64,000 nucleotides of DNA, taken from Sphaerotilus uruguayifluvii. GTDB lineage: Bacteria > Pseudomonadota > Gammaproteobacteria > Burkholderiales > Burkholderiaceae_C. Location: the NCBI RefSeq assembly GCF_013294065.1, contig NZ_JABSNM010000003.1, forward strand, positions 97,351 through 161,350, read 5' to 3'. Every line of letters begins with the position of its first letter. Positions within the stretch are counted from its first letter, which is position 1. Shown in pieces: positions 673 through 50,117 of the stretch. The notes under the pieces were generated by a model, which saw only the letters and a program-made list of their open reading frames with translations, was not told where the DNA came from and made no database searches. Both the position numbers and the translations under genes were made by a program.

Positions 673-768
673 GTCGGTTCCTTTTGACGCGGCGCAGCCA
701 TGCCGCGGCGTAGCCCTCGACAGGTCGGGGCCGGGTGATGCGGTTGAAGGCCAGGGGCCGGATGCGAG

Positions 769-1166: not shown

Positions 1167-1168
1167 GC

Positions 1169-1399
1169 TCAGGCCCTCCCGCAGACGGCCAGGCGGTCGG
1201 ATGCGACCAGCTCGGCAGCCTTGGCGCGCAGCTCGGCGCGGCACAGGGCAGCACGGGCCGCCGCACGCTGGCGGGCCACGCTCAGGGCGAAGGCGCGGAC
1301 CTGCTCACGGGCAGGCAGGCAGAAGGGGATGAAGCGGGCGGCACTGGCGCAGATGTGCGCAGCCGCCGTGCCGATGTGATCGGCCGGGGTCGTGGTCAT
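1169..1399 (-). CDS. Hypothetical protein of the integrative element, 76 aa
   Basis: No family recognised. The ATG at 1399 has a GGAG about 9-12 bases upstream. The protein is almost entirely helical and rich in Ala and Arg, with several cysteines that do not form a recognisable metal site. It is the first gene of a short leftward operon with the genes at 849-1166 and 319-672. Its promoter must lie in the repeat-rich region to its right; a 10-bp inverted repeat (1465-1474 with 1520-1529) sits about 65-130 bases upstream of the start and could be an operator. Confidence 0.45.
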   Translation of the reverse strand: MTTTPADHIGTAAAHICASAARFIPFCLPAREQVRAFALSVARQRAAARAALCRAELRAKAAELVASDRLAVCGRA

Positions 1400-1464
1400 G
1401 CTCTCGGCTCCGTTGTGAGCTTGAGGAACCCACACGCGACCCTTTCCACGGGGTAGCGGGTGGA

Positions 1465-1529
1465 CTGGCGGATGTTGGAAACACGGACAACGTCGTGCCG
1501 CACGCCTTGCGAACGTGCGCATCCGCCAG
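1465..1529. repeat. Perfect 10-bp inverted repeat upstream of the small-gene operon
   Basis: CTGGCGGATG at 1465-1474 is the exact reverse complement of CATCCGCCAG at 1520-1529, with 45 bases between. It lies upstream of the leftward small-gene operon, so it could be a pair of half sites for a regulator or a folded leader. No T-tract follows it. Function is inferred from position only. Confidence 0.4.
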
Positions 1530-1696
1530 CCCGAAACGCGAAGTATCCGGGCATGACAAAGCCGCACTTCGGGGCGGCATCCGCGTTGTCTTAGGTGTTT
1601 CCAGCACCTTTTTTCAGACTAGCACAGAAGTTCGCATGCGTGCGCGTTAGTTCGCATCAAGCCCGCGAACAGGTCACGATGCTGTGCGCTCTTGAC

Positions 1697-2130
1697 CGGC
1701 CGGGCCTGCCGGTCCCGTGGCGCCACCGCAGCTAGGCTGACGCACCCGGCGCACCGCCCGGCCACCAGCACCAGGAGGCAGGCCCTCGACCTCGACCAGC
1801 TCGGCGCCGGCCGGCCAGCAGCGCCAGCGCCTCGACGTGCTCGCGGCCGGGCCTGCCGGCCCCGTGGTGCTGCCGCAGCCAGGCTGACGCAACCCGGCTC
1901 GATCGGCGCCGGCCGGCAGCAGGCGAGCGCCTCGACGTGCCCACGGCCGGGCCTGCCGGCTCCGTGGTGCAGCCGCGGCCAGCGCACCACCGGGCACGAT
2001 CAGCGCCCCTGCGGTCCGCTGCTGGCGCTGGGCGCCGGCCACCACAGCACCAGGAGGCAGGCCCTCGACCTCGACCAGCCCGGCACCGGCCCGGCCAGCA
2101 GCGCCAGCGCCTCGACGTGCCCGCGGCCGG
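1697..2130. repeat. Imperfect dispersed repeats, three to four units
   Basis: A core GGCCGGGCCTGCCGG followed by a CCGTGG-like end occurs at about 1698-1720, 1845-1867 and 1945-1967, with a truncated copy at 2125-2130. CGCCTCGACGTGC precedes the later copies, at 1828, 1928 and 2108. A separate segment (CACCAGGAGGCAGGCCCTCG and following bases) is duplicated near 1769 and 2049. The spacings differ (about 147, 100 and 180 bp), so this is a decayed mosaic and not a clean tandem array. Confidence 0.6.
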
Positions 2131-2403
2131 GGAGGGGCGTAAGGCCACCTGCTCGCGCACTGTTCGCCAGCACCCGCAGAAGTGCGCCAGGAGGCGAGGC
2201 CGGACCGATCCAGAGAACTGCCCGTTATCAGTATCACCCCCTTAGGAAAAGGTCCATGAACAGCGGATGACCGGGGGCCGAATTACCCGCGGTGGAGGCG
2301 GCCAGGAGGACCCGGCCTCCCCCCGGGTGGCGACTGGTGCGACTCGGTCGGCCACCGATGCGACAGAAGAGAAGAAGGAAGGTGTCCTGTCCTCTCTCCT
2401 TCC

Positions 2404-2464
2404 TGTTCCCACCTGTTCCCGATCTGTTCCCGCTGCCTCCCCCCTTTGTTCCCGATCTGTTCCC
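2404..2464. repeat. Five TGTTCCC heptamers phased to the DNA helix
   Basis: TGTTCCC starts at 2404, 2414, 2425, 2447 and 2458, giving spacings of 10, 11, 22 and 11 bp. All copies therefore fall on the same face of the helix. Several are extended to GATCTGTTCCC. A less G+C-rich patch follows at about 2490-2530. This arrangement resembles iterons or a multi-site operator of an element-encoded DNA-binding protein. The sites lie downstream of the integrase gene, inside the element. Confidence 0.5.
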
Positions 2465-2860
2465 GGTGCGCTTCCTGCCCGTCAAGGGCGGCCTATGTCA
2501 TTGATTCCATTGGGAAATCATCCCGTCGCAACCACTGCCCCGGGATGTTGTTCCCGATGCCGAGTGCAGTTCGCGGGGGAAATTCGCCTGCTTTTCCTCT
2601 TGGCGCACCCCTTCAGCCCGGCCAGATGCCGCGCGCAGACAATCCCGCCGCCGCCTTCCCCGGCGGCCAGCAGCACACGCCCACAGGCCGGCCGACCTGC
2701 CCAGACCCAGCCCACACGACACGCCCAGCACTGCCCCCGCTGTCCTGTCCAGATGGACGAAGCCCGGCACGGGGCCGGGCTGGTGGCATGCACAAGGGGC
2801 TGCAGGTCGGACCGTCGGCGCACGACAGCCAGGCCAGCACCAGGAGGAAGGGCGGCCCGA

Positions 2861-4141
2861 TCAGGCGGCCCGGAACGGGATCACCTCGGCACCTCGCCGC
2901 AGCGTGTCCAGGTAGTCGGCCCATGCCTGCATCATCTGCCGGCGCTGCTTGAGGTACTGCGCCCGGTCATAGGCCGACCCAAGCGGCCCGCTCTTGGCGT
3001 GCGCCAACTGCGCCTCTATCCACTGCGGATCAATGCCCGGCAGGTTCTCCACGATGATCGTCCGGGCCAGCGCCCGGAACCCGTGTGCCGTCATCTCGTC
3101 CGAGCCATAGCCCAGCCGTCGAAGTGCACTGTTCAAGGTGTTCTCGCTGATCGGCAAACTCCCGGTGCGCAGGCTCGGGAAGCAGTAGACCCCCTCACCT
3201 GTCAGGGGCCGCAGCTCCTGCAGCAGCTCCACAGCCTGACGCGCCAACGGGACCAGGTGATCCGCCCCCCTCGCCTTCTGCTGCTTGGTGCGCTTCATCT
3301 CAGCAGACGGGATCGCCCACATTCCCGCCGACAGGTCCAAGTCTTCCCAGCGCATCCGCCGCACGTTCCCCGGGCGCTGGAAGGTCAGGGCCGCGACCTT
3401 CAAGGCCACCACCACCCACGGCATGCCGTCATAGCCGTCGATTGCCCGCAGCAGCTCGCCCACCTTCACAGGGTCGGTGATCGCCGCGTAATGCGTGGAA
3501 ACAGGCGCCACCAGGGCGCCACGCAGATCGGCTGACGGATCACGCTCGGCGTGCCCCGTGGCCACGGCATACCGACAGACCAAGCCGAAGGTCTGCTTGA
3601 CCCTCAGCGCCGAGTAGCCTGCCCCGCGTGCCTCCACCCTGCGCAGCACCTGCAGCAGCACGGGGGCAGTGATCTCGGGAAAGGTCATTCGCCCCAGCCA
3701 CGGGAACAGGTCGCGTTCCAACTGCAGGCGGGACCGTCGGGCATATGTGGTGCTGACCTTCGGTTCATGGACCAGCGCCAGCCATTCCAGCGCCACGGCA
3801 GCGAACGATCCCGGCAGAGGCTTGCCCGCAGCCTCCAGGGCGGCCAGCTCCTGCCGCTGCTGCTGCTCGGCCTTCTCTTCCTTGCGTGCTTCGCTCGGGT
3901 CGATCCCCTGAGCCAGTAGCGCCCGCGCTTCCTCTCGTCGTGCCCGTGCCATCGCCAGCGACACCTCAGGGTACACGCCGAGGCTGATCCGCTTTTCCTT
4001 GCCCCCGTGCCGGTACTTCAGGCGCCACCACTTCGCCCCGTTCGGTCGGATCTCCAGGTATAGCCCGCCACCATCGGCCACCTTTCGGGGGCGATCTCCG
4101 GGGGCAGCTTTGCGGATTGCAAGGTCAGTCAGGGCAGACAT
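2861..4141 (-). CDS. P4-type tyrosine-recombinase integrase
   Basis: Site-specific recombinase that integrates and excises the element at the adjacent tRNA gene. The 426-aa protein has the three parts of P4-type integrases: an N-terminal DUF4102-like domain (residues 1-95, with DGGGLYLEIRPNGAKWW), a core-binding SAM-like domain (about 110-215) and a catalytic domain. Catalytic residues are visible: Arg256 (TFQRPGN), Lys283, His353 and Arg356 (HGFR), His381 (LAHA) and nucleophile Tyr391 (AYDRAQYL). The C-terminus QMMQAWADYLD is characteristic of the family. The ATG at 4141 is chosen because the family starts at this point; an in-frame extension reaches 4210. Gene and tRNA lie 170 bp apart on the same strand, the classic arrangement for integration into a tRNA 3' end. 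The protein looks intact and functional. Confidence 0.95.
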   Translation of the reverse strand: MSALTDLAIRKAAPGDRPRKVADGGGLYLEIRPNGAKWWRLKYRHGGKEKRISLGVYPEVSLAMARARREEARALLAQGIDPSEARKEEKAEQQQRQELAALEAAGKPLPGSFAAVALEWLALVHEPKVSTTYARRSRLQLERDLFPWLGRMTFPEITAPVLLQVLRRVEARGAGYSALRVKQTFGLVCRYAVATGHAERDPSADLRGALVAPVSTHYAAITDPVKVGELLRAIDGYDGMPWVVVALKVAALTFQRPGNVRRMRWEDLDLSAGMWAIPSAEMKRTKQQKARGADHLVPLARQAVELLQELRPLTGEGVYCFPSLRTGSLPISENTLNSALRRLGYGSDEMTAHGFRALARTIIVENLPGIDPQWIEAQLAHAKSGPLGSAYDRAQYLKQRRQMMQAWADYLDTLRRGAEVIPFRAA

Positions 4142-4240
4142 GGGGGGGCAACTCTCAGACAGGGGCAACAGGTTGCCCCCGATGTTGCCCCTTCCGTTTC
4201 CCGGCTTCAAGCGGACAAGGGCGAAGCCAAGCGGACAAAC

Positions 4241-4276
4241 AAAAAGCCCTAGATCGTTGATTTTCTAGGGCTTTTT
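4241..4276. terminator. Bidirectional rho-independent terminator between tRNA-Arg and integrase
   Basis: AAAAAGCCCTAG (4241-4252) pairs with CTAGGGCTTTTT (4265-4276), giving a stem flanked by A and T tracts that can work on both strands. It lies just beyond the 3' end of the leftward tRNA-Arg gene and should terminate its transcript before the integrase region. Confidence 0.8.
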
Positions 4277-4307
4277 GAACGAATGCGGGCAACTGCGAAT
4301 GGGGCTC

Positions 4308-4382
4308 TGGTCCCCCCGACAGGAATCGAACCTGTATCTGGCGCTTAGGAGGCGCCCGTTCTATCCATTGAACTACGGGGAG
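4308..4382 (-). tRNA. tRNA-Arg (anticodon CCT)
   Basis: A complete cloverleaf can be folded on the minus strand. The 7-bp acceptor stem CTCCCCG pairs with CGGGGGG, including one G-U pair. The D arm has stem GTTC/GAAC. The anticodon arm is GGCGC-CTCCTAA-GCGCC with CCT at positions 34-36, and the T arm has the loop TTCGATT. The CCA end is encoded (4308-4310). Length is 75 nt. It reads AGG codons. Its 3' end faces the integrase, so it is the likely attachment target; the gene itself is intact at this junction. Confidence 0.95.
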
Positions 4383-4438
4383 AGCCGCTCCCGGGGTGCC
4401 CGAGAGACCGCGATTGTAGCCCGAAGGGACGGAGCCGG

Positions 4439-5527
4439 TCAGAAGCGCCGGGCCAGCGCCAGCTCGACCTGGGTCTGGCTGCTCGAGAAGCGCGAGGCGG
4501 TGCGCACGCCGTAGAGCATCGGCACCTCGCCGACCAGCCGGTGGTCGGCATGGCGCAGCTGCAGCGAGACGCGCGTGTCCGGGCCGAGGTCGCGCGACAG
4601 GCGCGCCGCCAGCGTGACGACACGTCCCACCGGCGTGCGGGTCGCGCCCGGGCCGTCGTCGATGCCGGGACGGCGCCAGCGCTGCAGGTCGGCGCCAGCG
4701 GAGAGCTGCCACGGCCCCTGGCGGCCATGCAGCGCCACGCCGAGATGGGCGAAGCGTGCGTCGTAGTTCGTCTCGCGCCGCGGATCGGTCTTCAGCAGCG
4801 ACGCGGGCACGCTGATGATCAGCGGATAGGCGCAGTCGGGCCCCGGGCGGGCGATCAGGCGGGTGGTGCCGAATTCGAGCTCGTGCGAGCAGCCGCCGAT
4901 CGTGGCCGCGCCGCCCAGGCCGCTGTTGGACACCGTGCTGCGGCCCAGGCCGGCCACCGCGGTGACCGCCACGCCCGGCCACGGCGTGCCGCCCTGGCCC
5001 AGCAGGTCGAGCTGCCACTGGCGGTCGCGCGGACGCTCGACGTCGAAGCGCGTGAGCTGCGCGTTCAGGCCGCTGACCTTCAGGCTGCCGCGGGTCGTCT
5101 GCGACAGCCGGTCGGCCCGATGGCCCCAGGCGCTGGCCTGGACGGCCCAGCGCAGCGGTGCGGCCTCGGGCGAGGCCGCGTCCGCCTCGTCAGGCGTCGA
5201 CTGCCAGCGCAGCGAGCCTTCCCAGCCGCGCAGCCGGTGCAGGTCGCCGCCGTCATGCAGCGTCATGCCGCCCAGTCCGAGTCCGAGCCGCCACGGCCCG
5301 GCCTGGCCGCTCAGCGCCAGACGGTCCTGGTCGGCGGCCTCGCGCTCGCTGCCCGCCAGGCGGCCGAGCGCACGGGTGAAGTCATGCCCGAGCTCGACCT
5401 GCCAGCGCACGCCGGCCGCCGGCGGCTCGTCGATCAGCGGCAGCGTGTCGAGCGGCAGCGCCAGCACCGGCGCGGCGGCCAGCGCCAGGGTCGCCGGCAG
5501 CAGCGCCGGCCGCAGACGGGCGGACAT
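4439..5527 (-). CDS. Predicted secreted outer-membrane beta-barrel protein, 362 aa
   Basis: No named family recognised. It has a Sec signal peptide (about residues 1-23, ending VLALP), then alternating beta-strand patterns with aromatic girdle residues throughout (for example WRLGLGLGGMTL and WQLSAGADLQRW). It ends in Arg-Arg-Phe, and the terminal Phe is the usual signal for BAM-mediated outer-membrane assembly. It starts 6 bases after the lipoprotein gene at 5534-7120, so the two form an operon and probably a complex or exported pair at the outer membrane. Channel, receptor and structural roles are all possible. Confidence 0.6.
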   Translation of the reverse strand: MSARLRPALLPATLALAAAPVLALPLDTLPLIDEPPAAGVRWQVELGHDFTRALGRLAGSEREAADQDRLALSGQAGPWRLGLGLGGMTLHDGGDLHRLRGWEGSLRWQSTPDEADAASPEAAPLRWAVQASAWGHRADRLSQTTRGSLKVSGLNAQLTRFDVERPRDRQWQLDLLGQGGTPWPGVAVTAVAGLGRSTVSNSGLGGAATIGGCSHELEFGTTRLIARPGPDCAYPLIISVPASLLKTDPRRETNYDARFAHLGVALHGRQGPWQLSAGADLQRWRRPGIDDGPGATRTPVGRVVTLAARLSRDLGPDTRVSLQLRHADHRLVGEVPMLYGVRTASRFSSSQTQVELALARRF

Positions 5528-5533
5528 CGCGGA

Positions 5534-7120
5534 TCAGAAGGTCACGCGGCCCTGGATCGACACGCCGCCGACTTCGGCGGCGGTGACGGTGCTGCCCGGC
5601 GTGCGCACCGTGATGCGCGAGACGCCCAGGCGGGTGCCGTCGGCCTGGCGCAGGTCGGCGCCCGTGCCGACCATGCGCACCCGGAAGGTGCCGGTCTCGG
5701 TCAGCACGCGGTCGATCAGCGTGGTGTTGTCGGGGAAGCGCTTGCGCAGGCCGGCGGCGAGCTTCTGCAGGTCGATGCCGACGCCATCCGAGCACGAGCA
5801 CAGGATGTTCGAGCTCAGGTCCGCGAACGGCGTCGCGCCGGTGCCGATCTCGATGCCCGCGCCGGTCTTCATGTAGAGGTGCAGCCCGGCATCGCTCTCG
5901 ATCTGCGCGCGCACCCGATCGGTCTCGTCGCGCAGCAGCGTCACGCCGGACAGCCGGGCCTGCAGGATGCCGCCGGTGGTGGTGTTCTCGATCTCGATGC
6001 CCAGCGTCAGGCCGGCGCCCTTCTTCGGGATCGCCAGCCGGGTGGCGTCGATCGGCAGCTTGACGTAGTCCAGCGTCGCCAGCGTCTGGCCCGACAGCGT
6101 CAGGCCGGACTGGAACTGCGCCAGCGTCGCGGTCGTCAGCTGGCCGGAGACCGGGGCGATCTGCACCTGATCACCGGTGACGAAGACATACTGCGCGGCC
6201 GTCAGCGCGCTGGTGTCGGCCAGCCGGGTGCGCGCGACAGAGACCTGGGTGCTGTCCTTCAGGTCGACCTGGGAGATCAGCGTGCGCACCGCGTTGCTGC
6301 TGATCAGGTCACGCGCAGCGCTCAGCGAGGCCGCCGACCGGGTCTGCTGCGCGATCGCGGCCAGACCCTGCGCCGCCAGCTGGGCGGCATTGGCCAGCGC
6401 GGTCTCGTCGAGCGTGTCACGGCCCTTGTTGCCCTCGCGCAGGCCGCCCAGCGCCGCGGCCTGCACCAGCGCCTGCAGGCCGCTGTCGCTGGCGAAGACC
6501 GACGCGCCGCTGCCACGCACCTGTTCGGCCACCGCGGCGACGGCGCCACGGAAGGCCGCAGCCGGATTGCCGCCGGTGTCGGCGCTCAGCTCGGCGATGT
6601 CGACGAGGATCTTGGCGATGGCCGCGGCCGTCGTCGCGCGGGCGCTGTCCTTGGTCGGATCGAAGGTCGCGACATCGACGCCCGACAGGCCCAGCCGCTC
6701 CAGCACCGTCTGGAACTCGGCATCGGACAGGCCGCTGACGACCTTCATCGTCGTGAACGGCGAGACCACCATGCTGCCGGCAGCGGCGATGAACTGCCCC
6801 GGCGGCGCCTTCAGCGTCGTCAGGTCGTAGCCCGTGCCGGCGACCGAGGCGAGCCGGCCGCTGCAGGCGGCGGAGAACGCGTAGGCGCCGAGGCTGTCGG
6901 TGACGGCGCTGAGCTCGCCGCCGTCGAGCGCGCCGTTGCCGTTGTCGTCGCAGAACACCGTCGCGCCGACGACCAGGTCATCGACCAGCACGCCGCTGGA
7001 GGCCGAGGCCGCAGGCGTGGTCGGCGTGGTCGGGCTGCTGGTGCTGTCACCGCTGCCTCCGCAGGCGCTCAGACCGAAGGCAAGGACAAGGGAGGCGGGA
7101 AGAAGGCGCAGGGCATGCAT
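5534..7120 (-). CDS. Predicted outer-membrane lipoprotein with an N-terminal SdrD-B-like segment
   Basis: 528-aa lipoprotein: a signal peptide with lipobox LSAC (lipidated Cys20), then a Ser/Thr/Pro linker. A short calcium-type segment follows (FCDDNGNGALDGGELSAVTD, around residues 57-76), typical of SdrD-B or carboxypeptidase-regulatory-like domains in bacterial surface proteins. The long middle is helical and Ala-rich, and the last ~200 residues look beta-rich. A CSCSD cluster near residue 425 may form a disulfide. The ATG at 7120 has AGGAG 9 bases upstream. It is followed after 6 bases by the barrel gene at 4439-5527. Function unknown; probably surface-exposed. Confidence 0.65.
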   Translation of the reverse strand: MHALRLLPASLVLAFGLSACGGSGDSTSSPTTPTTPAASASSGVLVDDLVVGATVFCDDNGNGALDGGELSAVTDSLGAYAFSAACSGRLASVAGTGYDLTTLKAPPGQFIAAAGSMVVSPFTTMKVVSGLSDAEFQTVLERLGLSGVDVATFDPTKDSARATTAAAIAKILVDIAELSADTGGNPAAAFRGAVAAVAEQVRGSGASVFASDSGLQALVQAAALGGLREGNKGRDTLDETALANAAQLAAQGLAAIAQQTRSAASLSAARDLISSNAVRTLISQVDLKDSTQVSVARTRLADTSALTAAQYVFVTGDQVQIAPVSGQLTTATLAQFQSGLTLSGQTLATLDYVKLPIDATRLAIPKKGAGLTLGIEIENTTTGGILQARLSGVTLLRDETDRVRAQIESDAGLHLYMKTGAGIEIGTGATPFADLSSNILCSCSDGVGIDLQKLAAGLRKRFPDNTTLIDRVLTETGTFRVRMVGTGADLRQADGTRLGVSRITVRTPGSTVTAAEVGGVSIQGRVTF

Positions 7121-7244
7121 GGGGGGACTCCTGGGAACGGCTCGGGCGATCGTATCGACGCCCCCGTTGCCAGAAATGCCGGGAAAGGCGAGCGATCGTC
7201 CGCCAATTCCCTCTGCAGCCGCCCGATCCGGCAGATCCGGCAGA

Positions 7245-7264
7245 TCCGACGCGATCGCGTCGGA
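7245..7264. promoter_or_regulatory. Perfect 20-bp palindrome upstream of the lipoprotein gene
   Basis: TCCGACGCGATCGCGTCGGA is exactly self-complementary. It sits in the 160-bp gap between the end of the diguanylate cyclase gene and the lipoprotein start, 125 bases before the lipoprotein ATG, next to a GGCAGATCC duplication at 7230-7247. It could be a dimeric operator for the lipoprotein-barrel operon or a terminator stem for the cyclase gene, but no T-tract follows on the minus strand. Confidence 0.4.
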
Positions 7265-7280
7265 CTCGGTCCGGGCCCGG

Positions 7281-8696
7281 TCAGGTCGGAGCCGAAACCG
7301 TGCAGACCCGGTCGCGCCCGGTCTGCTTGGCCTGGTAGAGCGCGCTGTCGGCGCGGCGCAGCAGGCCGAGCTCGTCATGGTCGCGAGCCGGATCGAAGGC
7401 GGCCACGCCGAAGCTGGCCGTCACATGCGCGGCCACCGGCGAGGCCGCATGCGGCAGCCGGCGCTGGTGCAGCAGCTCGATCATGCGCTCGACCAGCGCG
7501 GTGGCGCCCTCCAGGCCGGTGCCGTGCAGCAGCACCGCGAACTCCTCGCCGCCGTAGCGGGCGACCAGGTCGTCCTGGCGGGTGAAGACCGACTTCAGCA
7601 GCAGCGCGAACTGACGCAGGCAGTCGTCGCCGGCGGCGTGGCCGTAGTGGTCGTTGTAGGCCTTGAACGCGTCGATGTCGCCCATCACCAGCACCAGCGG
7701 CTCGCCGAGCAGGCGGGCCTGCGCCACCGCCTCGCGCAGGCGATCGTCGAACATGCGCCGGTTCGCCAGCGTGGTCAGCGCGTCGGTGGTGGCCAGGTGG
7801 CGCAGCCGGTTGCGGTCCTCGTGCAGGTCGGTCTCGTCGGACAGGCTCAGCAGCACGCCTGCGCTCATCGGCGCGATCTGCACCTGCAGGTAGCGCAGCC
7901 GCCCGTCGGCGGCCGGCAGCACGCGCGTGATCCGGCCGACCTGCCCGGTGACCATGACCTGGCGGCATTCGGCCTCGGCGTGCAGCAGCCGCCAGTCCGG
8001 CAGCACCCGGTGCACCAGCCGGCCGGTCACCTGCTCGCGCTCGACCTCGAACAGCTCGGCCAGGCGCGGATTGGCCATCAGCACCAGCCAGCCGCCGTCG
8101 TCCTCGCTCGCACCGTCGCCGGGCTCGACGCGGCGCAGCGCCAGCAGCGCGTCGCCGCTGGCGTCGACCACGTCGGCGTAGAGCTCGTGGCGCATCTGCA
8201 GCGGCCGGCCGTAGACCAGCACCCAGTCGCCGCCGTCGGTCGGCGCCAGCGGCAGCACCAGCCGCTCCCAGGTGAAGACCGGCTGGCTGCGCTCGGCCAC
8301 ATGCACCGCGTAGACCGGCTGGTTGCTGGCCAGCGCCTCGAGCTGCAGATCGCGGAACAGCGCCGCACGCTCCGGACCGAGCTCGGACAGGCGCCCGCCG
8401 GTGCGGTCGACGCCGGTGTGGCGGCAGATCTCGCTGCCGTAGTGGCCGTAGACGAAGTCGTCGGGCAGCGGATCGCCCGGCAGCGGCGGCTCGCGGCGCA
8501 GCAGCATCAGCCGGCCATGCAGCCGGTGCCACAGGCCGTCGGCGAAGGCGGACAGCGGCGCCCGGCCCTGCGGGTCACGGCCCTGCGTCCAGCGACGGCA
8601 CAGCGCGACGATCTCCGGGTTGTCCACCCTCGCCTCGATGCCTTCGCGGATCACCTGATGCCAGCTGCCGCTGCCGGCCTGGACGCCCTCGACCAT
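7281..8696 (-). CDS. Diguanylate cyclase with PAS domains (PAS-GGDEF)
   Basis: Makes the second messenger c-di-GMP from two GTP. In the 471-aa protein, residues ~60-170 resemble a PAS_5 domain (VYGHYGSEICRHTG ... WERLVLPLAP). A second PAS-like segment lies around 190-290, and the GGDEF domain from about 300 to the end. The active-site signature is GGEEF at 382-386, an accepted active variant. The inhibitory I-site RxxD (RQDD, 373-376) is spaced exactly five residues before it, so product inhibition is expected. There is no membrane segment or signal peptide, so it senses a cytoplasmic cue. It probably affects the motility/attachment switch in a species that also has pili and flagella here, but its partner is not shown by context. 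Confidence 0.93.
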   Translation of the reverse strand: MVEGVQAGSGSWHQVIREGIEARVDNPEIVALCRRWTQGRDPQGRAPLSAFADGLWHRLHGRLMLLRREPPLPGDPLPDDFVYGHYGSEICRHTGVDRTGGRLSELGPERAALFRDLQLEALASNQPVYAVHVAERSQPVFTWERLVLPLAPTDGGDWVLVYGRPLQMRHELYADVVDASGDALLALRRVEPGDGASEDDGGWLVLMANPRLAELFEVEREQVTGRLVHRVLPDWRLLHAEAECRQVMVTGQVGRITRVLPAADGRLRYLQVQIAPMSAGVLLSLSDETDLHEDRNRLRHLATTDALTTLANRRMFDDRLREAVAQARLLGEPLVLVMGDIDAFKAYNDHYGHAAGDDCLRQFALLLKSVFTRQDDLVARYGGEEFAVLLHGTGLEGATALVERMIELLHQRRLPHAASPVAAHVTASFGVAAFDPARDHDELGLLRRADSALYQAKQTGRDRVCTVSAPT

Positions 8697-10966: not shown

Positions 10967-13900
10967 TCAGCGCGGCAGCGCGCGGTTCACGACCGGGTCG
11001 GCCCCGGCAAACAGGTCGGCGTCGAACTTGAAGCGCAGCCGCAGGTAGGCACCGCGTGCGGTGTAGTCGCTCGAGAGATCGCGGTCGCTGAAGCCGCTGG
11101 CGTTGTACCCGGCCGACAGCCACAGGTTGGACTGCACCAGATAGCCCACCTCGACGCCGACCGAACGCTGCCAGGCCCCGCCCGGCTGCCCGGCCGCGTG
11201 GCCGCGCATCAGGCTCAGCTGCAGTCCCAGGTCCCAGCGCTCGGTGAGGTCGCGGATCAGCCGCCCGCCCACCAGCCAGGCGCGGTAGCTGTCCTGAACG
11301 CCGCCATCGGTGGAGGGGAAGCGCTCGACCACCGTCTTGCCCGCCAGCCGCCCCGAGGCCCACCAGGCCCGCGCGGGATGCACGTTGGCCTGCACCGCGC
11401 CGACATGCACCCGGCGCCACTCGTCCGTGGCGTTGATGTTGTCCTCGACCTTGTATTCGTACTTGCCCAGCACGTCGATGCGGTTGTGGTCGACCGGGCG
11501 CCAGGCCAGGCCGACCTGGAAGCGGTCCTGCCAGCCGTTGGCCCGCGCGCCGTGGTTGTCGGTCGCCAGGTAGTAGTTGCGCGCCAGCGCGGTCCAGTCG
11601 CGGTCGAGGCGGCGCACCGCGGTCAGCGTCGTCAGCCAGCTGTCCTGGGCCGTCAGCGTGCCCGCCGTGGTCGACGAGGGGGTGCTGCTGCTCGCGGCTT
11701 CCAGCCGGCGCCATTCCAGCCGGCCCGAGGCCTTCCACCACTCGCTGGCGGTCCAGTCGGCGCCGACGGTGGCGGCGGTGGCGTTCTGGCCGGTGCCGTC
11801 GAGGATGCGCAGCCGCTCCAGGCCTGTCGTCATCGCCAGACCCTCCTTCAGCTGCCAGACGTTGCGCACGCCGGTGGCCAGCTGCGAGGCCCGGCCGTCG
11901 CTGGCGTCGCGCAGGCGGTACTCGCTGAAGACCTCGCCGCCGTCCATGTAGCGTCCGTCGATGCCCAGCGCGATCGCCTGGCCGCGGCTCGTGCCGCTGT
12001 CGAGCGCGTAGCGCGAGGACAGGCCGGCCTGGTGCTCGGCGCGGGCATAGAGCCGCGCGCGCTCCGCCAGCTGGTAGCTCGCCGCCAGCTCGACGCGGTG
12101 GCGGTCCTGGCCGTCGACCGAAGCCTCGGCCAGACCGCGCAGCGTCCAGCGATCGCCGGCCCGCCAGGTCGCGCCGACGAAGGCGGTCGTGGTGTCGAGA
12201 TCGTCGACCGTGCCCGGCGCGGCGCCGGTGCTGCTGGCCAGCGCACCGTTGACGTTCAGCAGCGAGGTGCTGCCCGAGCCGCTGAAGCCGCCGTCGGCGC
12301 CCGGCGTGTAGTAGCTGCCGGCCGACGGATTGGCCGCCAGGCTGGCGAGCGCGCCGCGCAGGCGGCCGCGCTCCTCGATGCGGCGCAGGCCGACGCCGAC
12401 GGTCAGCGCCGGGCTCAGCCGGTAGTCGGCGCCGACGGTGGCGCCGCCGGCGCGGGCGCCGGTGTCGGTGTCGCGGTCGCGGCGCAGGTCGGTCTTCAGC
12501 GTCCAGCGCTCGCCGGCTTTCCAGGCGGCCGAGGCGCCGACCTGCTCGCTGCCGGGCTGCACGCCGGCGGCGGTGTTGGCGAAGGACGCGCCGGTGCGCG
12601 CCGCGCGCAGCCGCGCCTCGAGCTGCTCGTCGCGGTGCAGGAGCTCGACGCGCGCAGCGCGTCCGGTCGCGGTGCCGCTGTCGGGCAGCACCGGCGCGCC
12701 CACCAGCGAGGTGCCGACCGCGCTCAGCGAGGCCTCGGTCTGCGCCGCCTCGACGACCAGCTCGGTGGCCGCGCCCAGCTTCACGCCCGCATGCACGCTG
12801 GCGAGCCGGAAGCGCGCCTGCGGATTGCGGTCCTCGACGATCGCGCCGCCCAGGCTGGCGCGCTCGCCGAGGTTGATCTGGCCGTCGGCGCCGGCCAGCC
12901 AGAAGGCGTCGCCGCCCTGGTCGACCTCGTAGCTGACGCGCAGGTGGATCGGGTTGCCGTCGGCGTCCTGGCTCGGGATCGGGCGCGTCAGCAGGATGCG
13001 GCCGCTGAAGGGCTCGAAGCTGTAGTCGACCAGCCGCACCAGCGTCGTCACCGACAGCACGGTGTTCAGGTTGTTGCGGTCGCGCACGATCAGCTGGATC
13101 TGCTCGCTGTTCTCGAGCGCCTGCGTGCCGCTGACCGCGAACGGGCCGCTGGTGCCGTTGGCGGCGATCTCCTCGGTGGCATGGCGCAGCGTGTCGCGGC
13201 TGGCGAAGACGTTGACGAAGCCGTCGGCGCTCTCGCGGTGCAGCTTCACGCCGGTCATCGCGCGCTGGTAGCTGCCGAGCTGGCGCAGCCGGGTGCCGGC
13301 GACCACGCCGCCGCCGGCCGCGGCGACGACACCCTCGCCGGAGGCGAAGTCGCCGAACATCGCGAAGCTGCGGCCCTCGTCGACGCGCACGTACAGCCGC
13401 GAGGAGCTGCGCGCCTCGAAGCCCTTGACGCTGGCGTCGCCGTAGACCGGATAGAACTCCTCCGGCCGGATGTCGCCGAGCAGGCGCGCGCGCGTGTCCT
13501 TGTCGGAGTCGTAGGCCAGCGTCAGCAGCCGGTCGCCGCGGATCTTGCCCTTCAGGAACAGCGCCGCGCGGGCCGCGGCCTGGCCGCGGCCGCTGTCGAA
13601 GCCGCGGCTCCAGCTGCGCAGCTCGGCCTCGAAACCGTCGTCGACGCGCGCCGGCGAGATCGCGCCGTCGTAGCGCCGCGAGGTGCGGCCGATGACGCCC
13701 TCGATCAGGCCGGCGGCGATCATCTCGCGCACGTCCGGCTCGAAGCCGATCGTGCCGGCCACCTCGGCCTCGCCGGCGGTCAGGCGCAGCGCGACATCGC
13801 CGGGCTGCGCCGGCGCGATCAGGCTGAAGCTCGCCACGCCGTCGTTCACGCGCAGCTGCGTGCCGGGCACCGCCCGGTCGGCGTCGCGGCGGCCCGCGCC

Positions 13901-43421: not shown

Positions 43422-44477
43422 TCAGGGCTCGGCGCGCAGCATGCCGGAGATCAGGTTGTCGCGGTAGAGCGCCTGCTCGTCGATGCCGCCGGGCGGACGT
43501 GCTGGCCGCAGCGCCGCGCACCAGGCCAGCCAGCGCACACGCAGCCGAGCCAGGGCCGCACGGGCGCCGGCCCCGTCGACCGCGGCGAAGGTCAGCCGCT
43601 CGCCCGGGCGCGCCTGCGCCAGCCGCGGCAGGTCGGCGCGGATGACGGTGGCGATCTTCGGGTAGCCGCCGACGGTCTGGGCATCGGCCAGCAGCACGAT
43701 CGGCTGGCCGTCGGCCGGCACCTGGATCGCGCCGGGCACCACGCCGTCGGAGACGATGTCGGCCGCCGCCGCATCGACATGCGCCAGCGCCGGACCGGCC
43801 AGGCGCAGGCCCATGCGATCAAGCGCCGGCGTGACCTGCCAGGCACTGGCCAGCAGCCGCGCCCAGGCCCCGGCAGAGAAATGATCCTGCTGCGGACCGG
43901 GCAGCACACGGATCGGCCCGGCCTCCAGCCAGTCCGGCGCGGCCGCTGCGCACCACAGCCGCCGGTCCTGCGGCGCCAGCGCGCCGCAGCCGAAAGCATC
44001 GCCCGGCTGCAGCATGCGCCCGTCCAGCCCGCCCATGCGGGTGCGCAGATGGGTCGAGCGGCTGCCCAGCACCGGCGCGACCTGCACCCCGCCGCTGACC
44101 GCCATCCAGGCGCAGCCCCCGGACAGCGCCGCCAGATCCAGCACCGCGCCCGTCTCCAGCAGCACGCTCTGCCAGGGCGGCAGCGGCTGCACCTGCGCCT
44201 GCGCGTCGGGCGCCCAGGCGGCCGCGCCGCCCGCCACCGCCACCCGCACCGGCCCCTGCACCACCCGCAGCCGCAGCGCCGGGCCGCGCCATTCCAGGCA
44301 GGCCGCCTGCGGCGGGTTGCCGACCAGCGCATTGGCCGCGCCCGCCATCCAGCCGTCCAGCCAGCCCGCCAGCGCCACGCCCTCGTGACGATGCCCGACG
44401 CGGCCGGCGTCCTGCACCGTGCAGCCAGCGCCGCCGCGGACCACCTCGAGGCGGCCGTCGTGCGCGTCCGGTTTCAT
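43422..44477 (-). CDS. pxpC: 5-oxoprolinase subunit PxpC (biotin-dependent carboxyltransferase family)
   Basis: 351-aa AHS2/KipA-type subunit. Motifs include LEVVRGGAGCTVQDAGRVGH at the N-terminus, YPKIATVI and GGCAWMAVSGGVQV. The ATG at 44477 overlaps the pxpB stop (ATGA), so the two are translationally coupled and probably made in equal amounts as the PxpBC heterodimer. It acts in the cytoplasm. The upstream in-frame extension to 44927 is not real because it lies inside pxpB. Confidence 0.93.
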   Translation of the reverse strand: MKPDAHDGRLEVVRGGAGCTVQDAGRVGHRHEGVALAGWLDGWMAGAANALVGNPPQAACLEWRGPALRLRVVQGPVRVAVAGGAAAWAPDAQAQVQPLPPWQSVLLETGAVLDLAALSGGCAWMAVSGGVQVAPVLGSRSTHLRTRMGGLDGRMLQPGDAFGCGALAPQDRRLWCAAAAPDWLEAGPIRVLPGPQQDHFSAGAWARLLASAWQVTPALDRMGLRLAGPALAHVDAAAADIVSDGVVPGAIQVPADGQPIVLLADAQTVGGYPKIATVIRADLPRLAQARPGERLTFAAVDGAGARAALARLRVRWLAWCAALRPARPPGGIDEQALYRDNLISGMLRAEP

Positions 44478-45244
44478 GCGTTCTCCGGCATCAGGAAGTC
44501 CTCGCGCCGCAGCCGCCCGGCGGCCCAGTCGGCCGCCAGCGCCGCATGGGCAGCCGCTTCGACCGGCTGCCAGCTCAGCCGGTCGCCGGCCGCCAGCCAG
44601 GCCGGCGCCTGCGGGTGATCGGCCTCGAACAGCGGCAGCGGCAGATGCCCGACCAGCCACCAGCCGCCCGGGCTGTCCCAGGGATAGACGCCGCACAGGC
44701 CGGCCGCCAGCGCGACCGAGCCCGCCGGCACCCGGGTGCGCGGCGTGGCGCGGCGCGGCAGGTGCAGCGCCTGCGGCAGACCGATCAGGTAGGGAAATCC
44801 GGGCATGAAGCCGATCAGCCCGACCCGCAGCACCGCACGGCACAGGCCGTCGATCACCGCCTCGGGCGGCAGACCCAGGCGCTCGGCCAGCTCGCCCAGG
44901 TCGGGCGCGAAGGCCGGCTCGGCACACAGCGGCAGCCGCCAGTGGCGCCCGGCCGGCAGATCGGCGCCGGGCGCACCGGCCAGCGCCAGCAGTTGCGCGC
45001 CCAGCGCCTCGGCCTCGACCGCCTCGGGCTCGAAATGCACCGTCAGCGAGCGCAGCGTCGGCACCAGATCGACCACGCCGGGCAGCTGCGCCGCGCGCAC
45101 CCGTGCCGCCAGCCGCGCCACCTGCTCGGCCAGCGCCGGATCGAGGCGGCGGCCGAACTCGAGCGTCCAGGCGGCGTCGCCCAGCGGCAGCAGCCGCGGC
45201 GAGGTCATTGCCAGATGGTCTGCGCTGATGTCTTCATGACTCAT
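44474..45244 (-). CDS. pxpB: 5-oxoprolinase subunit PxpB (AHS1/KipI family)
   Basis: 256-aa AHS1-type subunit. Family motifs: LLPLGDAAWTLEFG, VVDLVPTLRSLTVHF, LIGFMPGFPYLIGLP, PRTRVPAGSVALAAG and GVYPWDSPGGWWLVG. The first gene of the operon. The start is uncertain between ATG 45244 and ATG 45208; the family N-terminus MTSPRLLPLG favours 45208, but neither has a strong ribosome binding site. Twenty bases upstream of 45244 lies a diverged copy of the 3' end of acnB, so its transcription start must lie near or within the islet to the right. Confidence 0.9.
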   Translation of the reverse strand: MSHEDISADHLAMTSPRLLPLGDAAWTLEFGRRLDPALAEQVARLAARVRAAQLPGVVDLVPTLRSLTVHFEPEAVEAEALGAQLLALAGAPGADLPAGRHWRLPLCAEPAFAPDLGELAERLGLPPEAVIDGLCRAVLRVGLIGFMPGFPYLIGLPQALHLPRRATPRTRVPAGSVALAAGLCGVYPWDSPGGWWLVGHLPLPLFEADHPQAPAWLAAGDRLSWQPVEAAAHAALAADWAAGRLRREDFLMPENA

Positions 45245-45264: not shown

Positions 45265-45294
45265 TCAGGCATTCATGCCCTTTGCGTTTTCGAC
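45265..45294. repeat. Diverged copy of the acnB 3' end (attachment-like direct repeat)
   Basis: These 30 bases match the last 30 bases of acnB (47526-47555) at 26 of 30 positions and in the same orientation. Read on the minus strand they encode VENAKGMNA and a stop, against VENAKGVNA and a stop in acnB; three of the four differences are synonymous. A 21-codon remnant frame (ATG 45330) runs into it. Together with the acnB end it forms a direct repeat bounding the nuclease islet. Confidence 0.75.
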
Positions 45295-45364
45295 GGCCGG
45301 CTCAAATCCGAAATACAACATACCGGGCATCAATTCAGAATCCATATCTGACCATGCACTGAAT

Positions 45365-47374
45365 TTATAGTCGCAGGTTATGCCGTGCGTAGGCGTACTC
45401 CTCATAGAAATCTCTTAAAGGGGTGATTAACCGCCTCGTGCGCTGCAGCTCGCTGGAGAATGTCTCGTTGTCGACAGTGTTCTCCAAGAGAAGGAGAAGA
45501 TGAAACACTGAAAGACTCCAGCAACGTGAGTACGGCAATGGAGACTTCAGATAGTCATCCTCTCCGACCGACTGCGCAGCGACCTTGAGCTTCTTGAACC
45601 ATCCCCCCAATTCTTCGAGCTGATCCTGCTTTTGGGGGTCGACGGTTTCAAAGTTTGCTACTGAACCCGCCTTGAGGAATTGCGCCAAGAATAGCCGGTC
45701 GTGAAGACTACCCAGATCACCGCGGGTGATCGATACCTTGAGAACCTCTCGACCAGACAGAAAGACCGGAGCTTCACCACTCTTTGATTTCAACCGAAGG
45801 ACGCCACTTTTTGCCAGCGCCGCATGTCGCGACATGGCCTGCGCTTGGGGGCGAACGATTGCTTGGGCAAGATCGACCAAGGCTGCCAGATCATCACCCG
45901 ACCTCGCCTTGCGCGTGAGCAACTTGCTCTTGAGTTCGATGAAGATCACTGCCTCGTTTGTCTCAATCACGGCATCGCACTCACCGTCGTCGCCGGCTTG
46001 GTCGTAGTCACCACAGAGAACGGTCACCCCTTTCTCGGACAGCTTGTCGCGAACGAACTCCTCGAACATCGATCCCAGTGCTTCACTATCGAAGTTTCCG
46101 CCCTTGGGCCATGCTCGACGACACCAATCCATCGTCGCATTCAATACTGCCCGCGCGCCAATCGACGGCGGTTGCATCACCAAGGCATCCCCGACAGCAA
46201 GAAGTGGCCGAAAAGCCGCATCGACATGCTCGTCTTTTGGGGGAAACGTAAGACTCTGGTTGGCCCCATTCTTGTGGCAGAAGATGTCTCTCAAGAGCGC
46301 GACGGCCGGAACCACGTCAGCATTGACCGCAACGGCAGCGGCGACAGGACGAATCACCGTGAATTCATCGATCATCTTGGCTGTCGCACAGGCGTGCAGC
46401 AGCATCGATGCGAGGGAGTGAACCTGTGATGCCGACGTGCCGGATTTGCTCTTGAGCGACGCGAACGACGGATGCCGCATCATCCAATCGAGAAAACTCT
46501 TTACGTGAGACACCTTGGCCTGTGTGACCAGGAACACTGAGTCGTAGACAGTCGACTGCCGCAGGATGGGAACGACGTCGGCTACGCGTGCAAACATCAG
46601 GTCAAACGATCGCGGAACCAAATCCAGCATTGCCGTGGCGTTGGTCAACAATGCCAACAAATCCGTCAATGCGCGTTGCGGATCGGACGCAGTTGGCTCC
46701 AGGGAAAAGTAGCGGATCCCCAGCTGGTACAGGTAAGCCAGAGGCTGTTGCGGAGTAGCATCAATCTGCACAACATACCCTGGTCGACCGAGATTGAACC
46801 GACCAGTGAAATCACTCCAACGTGGTCGCATTGCGCCCGCTGCCGAGATGGCAAGTGACTGTCCAAGTGACTTTGCAAGCCGATGAATTTCGTCAACAAG
46901 GCGCGACAACTCGGAATCGGGCATGTCTGCACCGCCCGTCGCAGGGAGATCGATTCGGTACCCCTTGTCGCGCAAGATCCTGACCGCATGCGAAAGCGTC
47001 GAGATTCGGGCATTGGTGGAGATGCTCTGGTCGATCGGCATGTGGCTCTTATGCGACGCAGCCAGCCTATCCGCCAAGCCGACTGCGCGAGACCAATCAC
47101 TCTGCGCCGTAGGCGAGTTACCACGCCGGCGAAGCGCCTGCTGGATGCACGCCGCCACGCGCCAGCTACGTTCAATCTCTATACCATCGCACAGATGCCT
47201 GATTCCGAGATCCTCAAGGAACTCGACCGCCGTGCGCAGGGACTGATCACTTTCAACTGGCGTGAAACAGCCTCTAATTTCTTCCAGATAAACCTCCTCG
47301 TCCATGCTTCGTGTGGCATCTGATTCCGACGCAGGGAGGTTATCCACCAGACTGCAGAAGTCGTTGAGGTTCAT
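45365..47374 (-). CDS. Unrecognised protein with a PD-(D/E)XK nuclease-like domain, 669 aa
   Basis: Not recognised as any named family. The N-terminal ~400 residues are mostly helical with no known motif. Residues ~430-520 read like a restriction-endonuclease fold: a leading helix with Glu438/Glu439 (LGSMFEEFVRDKL), a strand (VTVLCGDY), Asp467 in GECDAV, and Glu480-x-Lys482 in VIFIELKSK. The rest is a helical C-terminal region. D...ExK with a leading Glu is the metal site of many defence and repair nucleases. Base composition is visibly less G+C-rich than the neighbours, so transfer is likely. It stands alone between acnB and pxpB and lacks a clear ribosome binding site. Candidate single-gene anti-phage nuclease or islet-maintenance protein; other nuclease roles are possible. 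Confidence 0.6.
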   Translation of the reverse strand: MNLNDFCSLVDNLPASESDATRSMDEEVYLEEIRGCFTPVESDQSLRTAVEFLEDLGIRHLCDGIEIERSWRVAACIQQALRRRGNSPTAQSDWSRAVGLADRLAASHKSHMPIDQSISTNARISTLSHAVRILRDKGYRIDLPATGGADMPDSELSRLVDEIHRLAKSLGQSLAISAAGAMRPRWSDFTGRFNLGRPGYVVQIDATPQQPLAYLYQLGIRYFSLEPTASDPQRALTDLLALLTNATAMLDLVPRSFDLMFARVADVVPILRQSTVYDSVFLVTQAKVSHVKSFLDWMMRHPSFASLKSKSGTSASQVHSLASMLLHACATAKMIDEFTVIRPVAAAVAVNADVVPAVALLRDIFCHKNGANQSLTFPPKDEHVDAAFRPLLAVGDALVMQPPSIGARAVLNATMDWCRRAWPKGGNFDSEALGSMFEEFVRDKLSEKGVTVLCGDYDQAGDDGECDAVIETNEAVIFIELKSKLLTRKARSGDDLAALVDLAQAIVRPQAQAMSRHAALAKSGVLRLKSKSGEAPVFLSGREVLKVSITRGDLGSLHDRLFLAQFLKAGSVANFETVDPQKQDQLEELGGWFKKLKVAAQSVGEDDYLKSPLPYSRCWSLSVFHLLLLLENTVDNETFSSELQRTRRLITPLRDFYEEYAYARHNLRL

Positions 47375-47390
47375 TGGAATTTAGTCTGAT

Positions 47391-47412
47391 CATGAATGCA
47401 TACACATTCATG
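47391..47412. promoter_or_regulatory. 8-bp inverted repeat just upstream of the nuclease-like gene
   Basis: CATGAATG at 47391-47398 and CATTCATG at 47405-47412 are perfect inverted repeats with 6 bases between. They lie 17-38 bases before the start codon at 47374 in a less G+C-rich patch, where an operator or -10 region would be. Autoregulation or induction by a stress regulator is possible; this is position-based inference. Confidence 0.45.
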
Positions 47413-47440
47413 ACCGCACGGTTGCTGATGACAACTCATT

Positions 47441-47477
47441 AAAAAAGCCCACCAAGGTTCCCCCGGCGGGCTTTTTT
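47441..47477. terminator. Bidirectional terminator at the acnB end of the islet
   Basis: AAAAAAGCCCACC (47441-47453) pairs with GGCGGGCTTTTTT (47465-47477), giving A and T tracts on either side. It lies about 50 bases beyond the acnB stop and would end acnB transcription, isolating the islet gene. Confidence 0.85.
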
Positions 47478-47525: not shown

Positions 47526-50117
47526 TCAGGCGTTCACGCCCTTGGCGTTCTCGACATATTCCTCGATCTGGTCGAAGTTCATGTACTTGTAGATCTTGTC
47601 GGCATTCTTGGTGACGACGCCGATCTCGGCCATGTATTCCTCGACGGTCGGGATGCGGCCCAGCTTCGAGCACACCGCGGCCAGCTCGGCCGAGCCCAGG
47701 AACACGTTGGTGTTCTTGCCCAGGCGGTTCGGGAAGTTGCGGGTCGAGGTCGACATGGCGGTCGAGCCTTCCTTGATCTGCGCCTGGTTGCCCATGCACA
47801 GCGAGCAGCCCGGCATTTCCATGCGGGCGCCGGCGCCGCCCAGGGTGGCGTAGTAGCCTTCCTTGGTCAGCTCGGAGGCATCCATCTTGGTCGGCGGGGC
47901 CACCCACAGGCGCACCGGGATGTCCTTCTTGCCCTTCAGGATCTCGCCGGCGGCGCGGAAGTGACCGATGTTGGTCATGCACGAACCGACGAAGACTTCG
48001 TCGATCTGGGTGCCGGTGACTTCGGACATGAACTTAGCGTCGTCCGGGTCGTTCGGGCAGCAGACGATCGGCTCCTTGATGTCGGCCAGATCGATCTCGA
48101 TGACGGCGGCGTACTCGGCGTCGGCATCGGCCTTGAGCAGCTGCGGATCAGCCAGCCAGGCTTCGACCTTCTCGATGCGGCGCGCCAGCGTCTTCGCGTC
48201 GGCGTAGCCGTCGGCGATCATGTTCTTCATCAGGACGATGTTCGAGCGCAGGTACTCGGCGATCGGCTCGGGGTTCAGCTGCACCGTGCAGGCGGCGGCC
48301 GAACGCTCGGCGGCGGCGTCCGACAGCTCGAACGCCTGCTCGACCTTCAGGTTCGGCAGACCTTCGATCTCGAGCACGCGGCCCGAGAAGACGTTCTTCT
48401 TGCCCTTCTTCTCGACGGTCAGCAGACCGGCCTTGATGGCGTACAGCGGGATCGCGTGGACCAGATCGCGCAGCGTGATGCCGGGCTGCATCTCGCCCTT
48501 GAAGCGCACCAGCACCGATTCCGGCATGTCGAGCGGCATCACGCCGGTCGCGGCGCCGAAGGCCACCAGACCCGAACCTGCCGGGAAGCTGATGCCGATC
48601 GGGAAGCGGGTGTGCGAGTCGCCGCCGGTGCCGACGGTGTCGGGCAGCAGCAGGCGGTTCAGCCAAGAGTGGATCACGCCGTCGCCCGGGCGCAGCGCCA
48701 CGCCACCGCGGTTGGCGATGAACTTGGGCAGCTCGCGGTGCATCTTCACGTCCACCGGCTTCGGATAGGCGGCGGTGTGGCAGAAGGACTGCATGACCAG
48801 ATCGGCCGAGAAGCCCAGGCAGGCCAGGTCCTTCAGCTCGTCGCGGGTCATCGGGCCGGTGGTGTCCTGCGAACCCACGGTCGTCATCTTCGGCTCGCAG
48901 TAGGTGCCCGGGCGGATGCCCTGGCCTTCCGGCAGGCCGCAGGCGCGGCCGACCATCTTCTGCGCCAGCGTGAAGCCGGCCGTGCTGGCGGCCGGAGCCT
49001 TGGGCAGACGGAACAGCGTCGAGGCGGGCAGACCCAGCGCTTCGCGGGCCTTGGCGGTCAGCGAGCGGCCGATGATCAGGTTGATGCGGCCGCCGGCGCG
49101 CACTTCGTCCAGCAGCACGTCGCTCTTCAGCGAGAACTCGGCGACGGTCTCGCCACCCTTGGTGATCTTGCCGTCGTACGGCAGCACGTCGATGACGTCA
49201 CCCATTTCCAGCTTGGAAACGTCGACTTCGATCGGCAGCGAGCCGGAGTCTTCCTGCGTGTTGAAGAAGATCGGAGCGATCTTGCCGCCCAGGGTCACGC
49301 CGCCGAAGCGCTTGTTCGGCACGAAGGGAATGTCTTCGCCGGTGGCCCAGATGACCGAGTTGGTCGCCGACTTGCGCGACGAGCCGGTGCCGACCACGTC
49401 GCCGACGTAGGCGACCAGGTTGCCCTTCTTCTTCAGGTCGTCGATGAACTGCATCGGGCCGCGCACGCCGTCCTGCTCCGGCACGAAGGCCGCGCCCGGA
49501 CGGGTGTTCTTCAGCATCGCCAGATAGTGCATCGGGATGTCCGGACGGCTCCAGGCATCCGGGGCCGGCGACAGGTCGTCGGTGTTGGTCTCGCCGGGCA
49601 CCTTGAACACGGTCACGGTGATCGACTTCGGCACTTCCGGACGGCTGGTGAACCACTCGGCGTCGGCCCACGACTGCATCACTTCCTGCGCCTTGGCGTT
49701 GCCCGCCTTGGCCTTGGCGGCGACGTCGTTGAAGTAGTCGAACATCAGCAGGGTCTTCTTCAGACCTTCGGCGGCGATGCCGGCGACTTCCGCGTCGTCG
49801 AGCAGCTCGATCAGCGGGTGCACGTTGTAGCCACCGACCATGGTGCCCAGCAGCTCGGTCGCCTTGGCCTTCGAGACCAGGCCCACCGACAGCTCGCCGT
49901 GCGCGACGGCGGCCAGGAAGCTGGCCTTGACCTTGGCGGCATCGTCCACGCCCGGCGGCACGCGGTGCGTCAGCAGATCGACCAGGAACGCTTCCTCGCC
50001 AGCCGGCGGGTTCTTGATCAGCTCGATCAGTTCGGCGACCTGCTTGGCATCGAGGGCGAGCGGCGGGATGCCGAGGGCGGCGCGTTCGGCGACGTGTTGA
50101 CGATAGGCTTGCAGCAT
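47526..50117 (-). CDS. acnB: Bifunctional aconitate hydratase B
   Basis: 863-aa TCA-cycle enzyme interconverting citrate and isocitrate (also active on 2-methylcitrate in many bacteria). It shows the AcnB order: an N-terminal HEAT-like domain ([20 protein letters not shown]), a swivel domain with [19 protein letters not shown], then the catalytic core with [35 protein letters not shown] and the [4Fe-4S] ligands Cys713 (GSCMTN), Cys771 and Cys774 (PGCSLCMGN). The start ATG at 50117 is the family start. A GTCTTATATAAGAC operator lies 83 bases upstream. The last codons form the direct repeat that bounds the nuclease islet. Confidence 0.97.

Follow-up and report, generated by a model that had tools for sequence, protein, structure and literature searches.

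A gene that lies alone between acnB and a pxpB-like gene in Sphaerotilus uruguayifluvii encodes a 669-aa protein with a PD-(D/E)XK-type core, and we consider it probable, if by no means settled, that this horizontally acquired gene is a single-protein, nuclease-based immune system in which the long front part acts as the sensor. The window, i.e. the whole stretch of DNA analysed, has a length of 64,000 nucleotides. The features needed for the argument are as follows, in window positions.

45365-47374, minus strand: 669-aa ORF with an ATG start, from the ORF list and the family alignments; it belongs to no described family. By conservation in blocks its parts are a variable front (residues ~1-429), a PD-(D/E)XK-type core (~430-515) and a remainder (516-669).
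45830-46087, minus strand: nuclease core, residues 430-515 (E438, D467, E480, K482, K484, Q512), computed from the ORF start.
47526-50117, minus strand: acnB (aconitase B), the upstream flanking core gene, name read from the sequence.
44474-45244, minus strand: pxpB-like gene, the downstream flank, with its start at 45244, name read from the sequence.
47526-47555, minus strand: last 30 nt of the intact acnB, near edge of the islet.
45265-45294, minus strand: diverged second copy of the last 30 nt of acnB (26/30), far edge of the islet.
47441-47477, no strand: terminator-like inverted repeat containing runs of A and T, located between acnB and the 669-aa gene.
47390-47413, no strand: inverted repeat, two perfect 9-nt arms, TCATGAATG and CATTCATGA, around 6 nt, read directly.

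As the earlier note had described, a lone ORF is located in less G+C-rich DNA between housekeeping genes; the ORF list and the G+C profile agree on this. No other convincing gene is listed between the start of pxpB (45244) and the stop of acnB (47526). The G+C content of the 669-aa gene is 0.561, against about 0.63-0.78 in its surroundings and a window mean of 0.706, and its third-position G+C is 0.633 vs 0.919 in acnB and 0.895 in pxpB. The start given in that note, 45265, has to be corrected, as it falls outside the gene and coincides with the second copy of the acnB 3' end, a feature that the note leaves unmentioned. The inverted repeat with 9-nt arms is located just upstream of the start codon, after the terminator-like repeat, and it is possible that it represents a putative operator. 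The letters CATGAATG are common to this inverted repeat and to the acnB-end copy at 45265-45294. The terminator-like repeat was not listed by a consensus terminator scan with a loop limit of 8 nt.

Comparison within the genus demonstrates that the islet is a foreign insertion beside acnB. The 3' half of acnB is present in 12 of the 13 same-genus genomes, own included (the thirteenth, G006, in which it was not found, is 68% complete), and the DNA downstream of acnB was compared in the other 11. In G010 and G005 the acnB and pxpB matches are ~100 and ~130 nt apart, and the site is therefore empty there; the corresponding distance in the window is 2.3 kb. The copy of the acnB end at the far edge is identical at 26 of the 30 positions, a value to be compared with at most 19 in 5000 shuffles of the spacer, and three of its four differences are silent in the acnB frame. 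Empty sites and acnB-end copy together bear out the inserted islet that had been proposed from the window.

The same site holds other DNA in other genomes. G003 has a different islet, placed between acnB and a second, 228-nt acnB 3' end (228/228 identical), which encodes HsdR, a Fic protein, HsdS, a UPF0149/SEC-C protein and HsdM, i.e. a type I restriction-modification system. It spans ~8 kb (L084, about 454-8563, oriented along acnB), and each of the 228-nt acnB ends is followed by terminator-like sequence. By eye, the same HsdR and Fic ORFs are seen in G004, where the stretch stops short of the far edge, while a MoxR-type ATPase, a vWA protein and a nucleotidyltransferase-partner protein lie downstream of acnB in G012 (L078), and ~1 kb with one short ORF precedes pxpB in G008. 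In G001, G002, G007, G009 and G011 the sequence that was taken shows G+C-rich genes and neither an evident islet nor a match to pxpB. An islet is accordingly counted at the acnB site in 4 of 12 same-genus genomes, with the window's own counted and G008 left out. No integrase gene is evident in the window islet or in the G003 islet.

Defence hotspots flanked by core genes are described for Pseudomonas aeruginosa (PMC10250203). A family-wide hotspot at the acnB 3' end was considered here and is unproven; the last 75 codons of acnB are matched twice in just 4 of the 200 genomes of the family-level sample, and we therefore do not claim one. The repeated ends bear on a different explanation of the gene, namely that it serves a small acnB-targeted element in mobility or addiction, aiding insertion at the acnB 3' end or killing cells that lose the element. 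An islet that ends in a second acnB 3' end and holds only the 669-aa gene would suit such a role, as would the different same-genus islet that also lies between two acnB 3' ends. However, the G003 islet with such a repeat carries a type I restriction-modification system in a genome without a family relative, the relatives found elsewhere on plasmids have unrelated surroundings, the islet leaves no room for a partner antitoxin gene, and doubled acnB ends are as scarce in the family sample as stated above. We thus regard this explanation as improbable. For the immune reading, the restriction-modification system of G003 is indirect supporting context from the same site.

Judged from its motif and its profile matches, the core of the 669-aa protein is of the PD-(D/E)XK type and is related to YraN/UPF0102 and to the core of GapS1. 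The residues on which a nuclease-like site had been proposed, E438/E439, D467 and E480-L-K482, sit at the positions given for them. Eleven full-length members were aligned, and Rhizobium phaseoli S3 and Phaeobacter, as well as fragments from Shewanella and from the split Xanthomonas copy, were added later. D467, E480, K482 and Q512 are kept in 13/13 members with an intact core (the eleven, R. phaseoli S3 and Phaeobacter; window protein included, broken Shewanella and a second-Xanthomonas near-copy left out), and E438 in 12/13. The D...(D/E)xK motif of the PD-(D/E)XK superfamily is present and kept across relatives, and because of this retention its residues are not a product of chance. The mean per-column identity is 0.34 at residues 430-515, 0.17 in residues 1-130 and 0.21-0.27 elsewhere, and the best-conserved 86-residue stretch, 464-549 (identity 0.36), overlaps the core. 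A full-length AlphaFold model made without an alignment has a mean pLDDT of 37, too low to give a confident structure.

Two relatives are broken. An IS3-type element interrupts the nuclease core in a member on a Shewanella plasmid (L071, 8001-11329), and the gene is split into two frames on a Xanthomonas plasmid (L005, 4775-6876). Such relatives, as well as a promoter scan in which no sigma-70-like promoter was found in the islet region, would be in line with an inert passenger, that is, a decaying insertion without present function. The window copy, however, has a reading frame that is open over its full length and retains all catalytic residues, and the family holds its core while its front diverges, which implies selection rather than decay. 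We consider an inert passenger very improbable.

Single-protein searches were carried out against Pfam, PADLOC, NCBIfam and PHROGs, and none of these four libraries names the full-length family, in keeping with the earlier note, which had recognised none. Only sub-threshold or weak matches of the window protein were obtained in Pfam, PADLOC and NCBIfam, nearly all within residues 390-514. PHROGs has no family for the window protein, and one of 11 members matches a PHROGs family (E 0.0092). When single members were used, the YraN models (best 9e-5), DpnII (2.7e-4), Csx1 (6e-4), CARF-PDDEXK (0.012) and Card1 (0.094) were matched. Against solved structures, the window protein yields nothing beyond two matches to regulators at chance level (E 0.9, residues 70-166), and the sole match of the family profile at E up to 10 is the UPF0102 protein 3fov_A (0.0067). 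The PD-(D/E)XK-type assignment is supported by the invariant D..ExK residues together with the YraN/UPF0102 and GapS1 profile matches, and more weakly by DpnII and the other single-member matches.

YraN/UPF0102 (PF02021, TIGR00252), a housekeeping family, gives the strongest core match: hhalign aligns it (10 sequences) with our family at 2e-10 over 64 columns, and the matching structure 3fov_A belongs to it. The ten relatives used have 125-183 aa and cover only those ~64 columns, whereas the protein here has 669 aa. The window protein matches UPF0102/YraN with E values of 0.0046 (Pfam) and 9e-5 (NCBIfam) and misses both cut-offs (17.7 vs 23.6 bits and 22.5 vs 109 bits, respectively).

GAPS1 is a single-gene defence protein. 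The GapS1 model (NF047931, 'antiphage_GapS1') is alike in plan, with a front module followed by a D..ExK-like core, and hhalign places four GapS1 relatives against our family at 7e-9 over 251 columns, or at 2e-8 for the core alone; five controls with column-shuffled or reversed GapS1 gave 0.08-0.69. It is also alike in being sporadic, as it exceeds its cut-off in 2 of 249 phylum genomes. However, the model has 455 positions vs 669 aa, the window protein scores 11.9 bits against a curated cut-off of 320 (E 0.073), and at E <= 1 the model is matched by 2 of 7 members, with 0.0081 as the best value. Aligned by itself with GapS1, the part that precedes the core keeps the register of the full match, at non-significant values of 0.034, 0.011 and 0.038. 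Because matches are present and the curated cut-offs are missed, we describe the protein as core kin of GapS1 and YraN and as a member of neither. One publication applies the term defence system protein to GAPS1 (PMC12774648).

Other candidate families were also considered. PDC-M29B and PDC-S01, both PADLOC candidates, match the window protein weakly and in the nuclease region only (E 0.002-0.003). PDC-M29B is matched by 4 of 7 members (best 3.4e-4) and, in the window protein, over residues 462-485 only; the PDC-S01 models have 375-452 positions and match the window protein over 412-487 only, although they match both neighbours of the relative in G430 nearly end to end. Membership in PDC-S01 or Csa3 does not hold, as these labels match the nuclease region only or a helix-turn-helix neighbour. 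Shedu (SduA, PF14082) was rejected as well, with no Pfam SduA_C match at E <= 10 and an hhalign value of 0.21 vs five relatives, i.e. no detectable sequence relation to the 669-aa protein. Related cores in other layouts occur in L014 (G560, 778-2208; 476 aa; hhalign 6e-9 vs the family) and L027 (G490, 541-2712; 723 aa; 3e-8), and the parts before the core of these two proteins are not significant by themselves. In titles and the beginnings of abstracts, no description of the 669-aa-protein family or of its acnB landing site was found.

The core alone would equally fit repair or recombination. The YraN/UPF0102 match, being the best one of the core, also favours a DNA-processing nuclease (repair, recombination, plasmid upkeep) that serves mobile elements, with a front that binds DNA or a replication partner and with no immune role. 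The front, however, is the least conserved part, which is unusual for a housekeeping enzyme, and the window gene has a metabolic gene on either side and no companion, on a contig of 350 kb. The surroundings of the relatives, described below, also bear on this reading, which we hold to be rather unlikely.

Relatives of the protein are scattered, as had been anticipated in the earlier note. The family occurs in 1 of the 60 nearest genomes, the window's own, and in the order sample in 2 of 300, the second being a nuclease-only match (9.6e-4) with an internal stop; the phylum sample at 1e-9 gives 2 of 398, the own genome and G992. The profile matches at 0.001 in 71 of 369 genomes of the class sample, a count that we reject as a measure of spread, because the matches listed, apart from those of G430 and the own genome, are confined to profile positions 399-570; the core-only matches among those listed are mostly YraN-sized frames.

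The window protein matches 13 of 72,556 plasmid records (tblastn), of which 11 are typed conjugative. Use of the relatives as tblastn queries added Shewanella, Acinetobacter, Phaeobacter and a second Rhizobium phaseoli plasmid, and two further relative-query plasmid searches added nothing new. The genome samples contributed G430 and G992, and IMG/VR one provirus, L088. With near-identical records counted once, the family is found at 13 distinct places outside the window, of which ten are plasmid-borne, two lie in genomes and one in a provirus. Neither the window protein nor the protein of L088 has a match among 50,697 phage records, and L088 is the one relative found by the viral contig scans. 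Genome contigs scanned with back-translated patterns gave no relative, one of these scans having two patterns and carrying little weight. The family is mobile and sporadic, and it is spread on mobile elements.

A PADLOC scan was carried out on 25 proteins around the relatives. These were chosen by hand, and the neighbour counts therefore lean towards interesting genes. Ten of the 25 match PADLOC at E below 1e-15, and a strong PADLOC neighbour is found within ~10 kb in 7 of 13 contexts, among these hand-chosen proteins. In G992 (L075, 5202-10897) the family gene is upstream of a SIR2-APAZ-type protein followed by a short Argonaute, and the flanking ORFs are presumably transposase genes. The family gene of Rhizobium jaguaris adjoins a Dsr1-like SIR2 protein. 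Further strong neighbours are HmaC in Bradyrhizobium, BilD in Xanthomonas, a caspase protein in Shewanella, PDC-M30A and PDC-M30B in Methylobacter, and two PDC-S01 proteins in G430, where the family gene is inside what reads as a surface-polysaccharide cluster. The PDC-M30A match is to a TcmP-type neighbour (L002, Methylobacter plasmid, 12211-13512) with a GMT-like winged-helix domain, PF22560 (2.4e-10).

Weaker matches are those of a neighbour in the R744/C104 Rhizobium context (PDC-S11, 4e-7) and of a DrmC/ZacB-like neighbour in R. phaseoli S3 (1.5e-5). On the latter plasmid (L095, 9530-20607) the family member adjoins a 1438-aa protein, and other neighbours are taken by us to be a NucS-like nuclease and a phospholipase-D-like protein, all with no more than weak PADLOC matches; these surroundings are possibly a candidate unlisted defence cluster. 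Alteromonas has an AbiEii-type gene by annotation and two adjacent genes that match nothing in PADLOC. Acinetobacter and Phaeobacter showed nothing defence-like; in the former the single scanned neighbour gave no more than a helix-turn-helix match (4e-4), and for the latter the annotation alone was read. The one neighbour scanned in the provirus gave no PADLOC match. In this provirus (L088, 1-2073) the family member is located at the contig edge, and an ORF ~2 kb from it is presumably an endolysin gene.

As an annotation control, six equal-size stretches half a plasmid away were taken for 6 of the 10 plasmid contexts, leaving out Xanthomonas, Acinetobacter, Phaeobacter and the unannotated R. 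phaseoli S3 record. A defence-linked gene was annotated in 4 of 6 focal vs 1 of 6 control stretches, a difference in the expected direction but with numbers too few for significance. The focal matches are AbiEii, CHAT, SIR2 and TIR/caspase, with none in Methylobacter and Rhizobium C104; Hachiman occurs in one control stretch, and the other five have none.

Among the neighbours examined, nearness to defence genes is thus frequent, in about half of the contexts. As to whether homologues fall in defence islands, which the earlier note had asked, the seven contexts with a strong, hand-chosen PADLOC neighbour may point that way, and in three others nothing defence-like appeared among what was looked at. 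A fixed metabolic neighbourhood, named beforehand as what would speak against the proposal, is not shared among the 13 contexts, and this lack of a shared neighbourhood fits a single-gene unit. Some surroundings favour the DNA-processing reading: the gene of Rhizobium sp. C104 is between an integrase gene and repC/repB, and that of Alteromonas is near a Y-family polymerase gene. However, replication genes are not a consistent feature of the contexts, several of which are close to defence genes.

We therefore return to the immune reading. The fast-evolving front of ~430 residues would most likely sense an invasion cue and would hold the nuclease inactive until that cue arrives. The triggered core would then cut DNA, either the invading DNA or all DNA, in the latter case sacrificing the cell to stop the phage. 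DNA as the substrate, the gating by the front and the sensing are what we infer, and protection would be directed against phages or plasmids.

Shedu, whose nuclease is of the PD-(D/E)XK type, is alike in plan, in that one protein would combine a sensing part and a nuclease, as we propose here. It offers, by analogy, a working model for the sensing-plus-nuclease plan. According to a review, Shedu senses DNA ends, which relieves the autoinhibition of its nuclease (PMC12904381).

A more specific proposal is offered tentatively, as one that is less likely than not. It is that of an undescribed single-protein immune family whose large and fast-evolving front would exert direct control over a DNase of the YraN/GapS1 type. 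Its members would travel among proteobacteria by way of conjugative plasmids, of prophages and of islets that lack an integrase and insert at the acnB 3' end, and would sometimes lie beside a SIR2/short-Argonaute system.

Should the immune reading hold, the gene would represent a one-gene family of immune nucleases that is unnamed at full length in the four libraries searched. It would also provide a compact test object, with one gene, few catalytic residues and thirteen other distinct relatives. The case would further mark the acnB 3' end as a site at which small islets, in part with defence genes, insert in this genus, and it may be mined for others.
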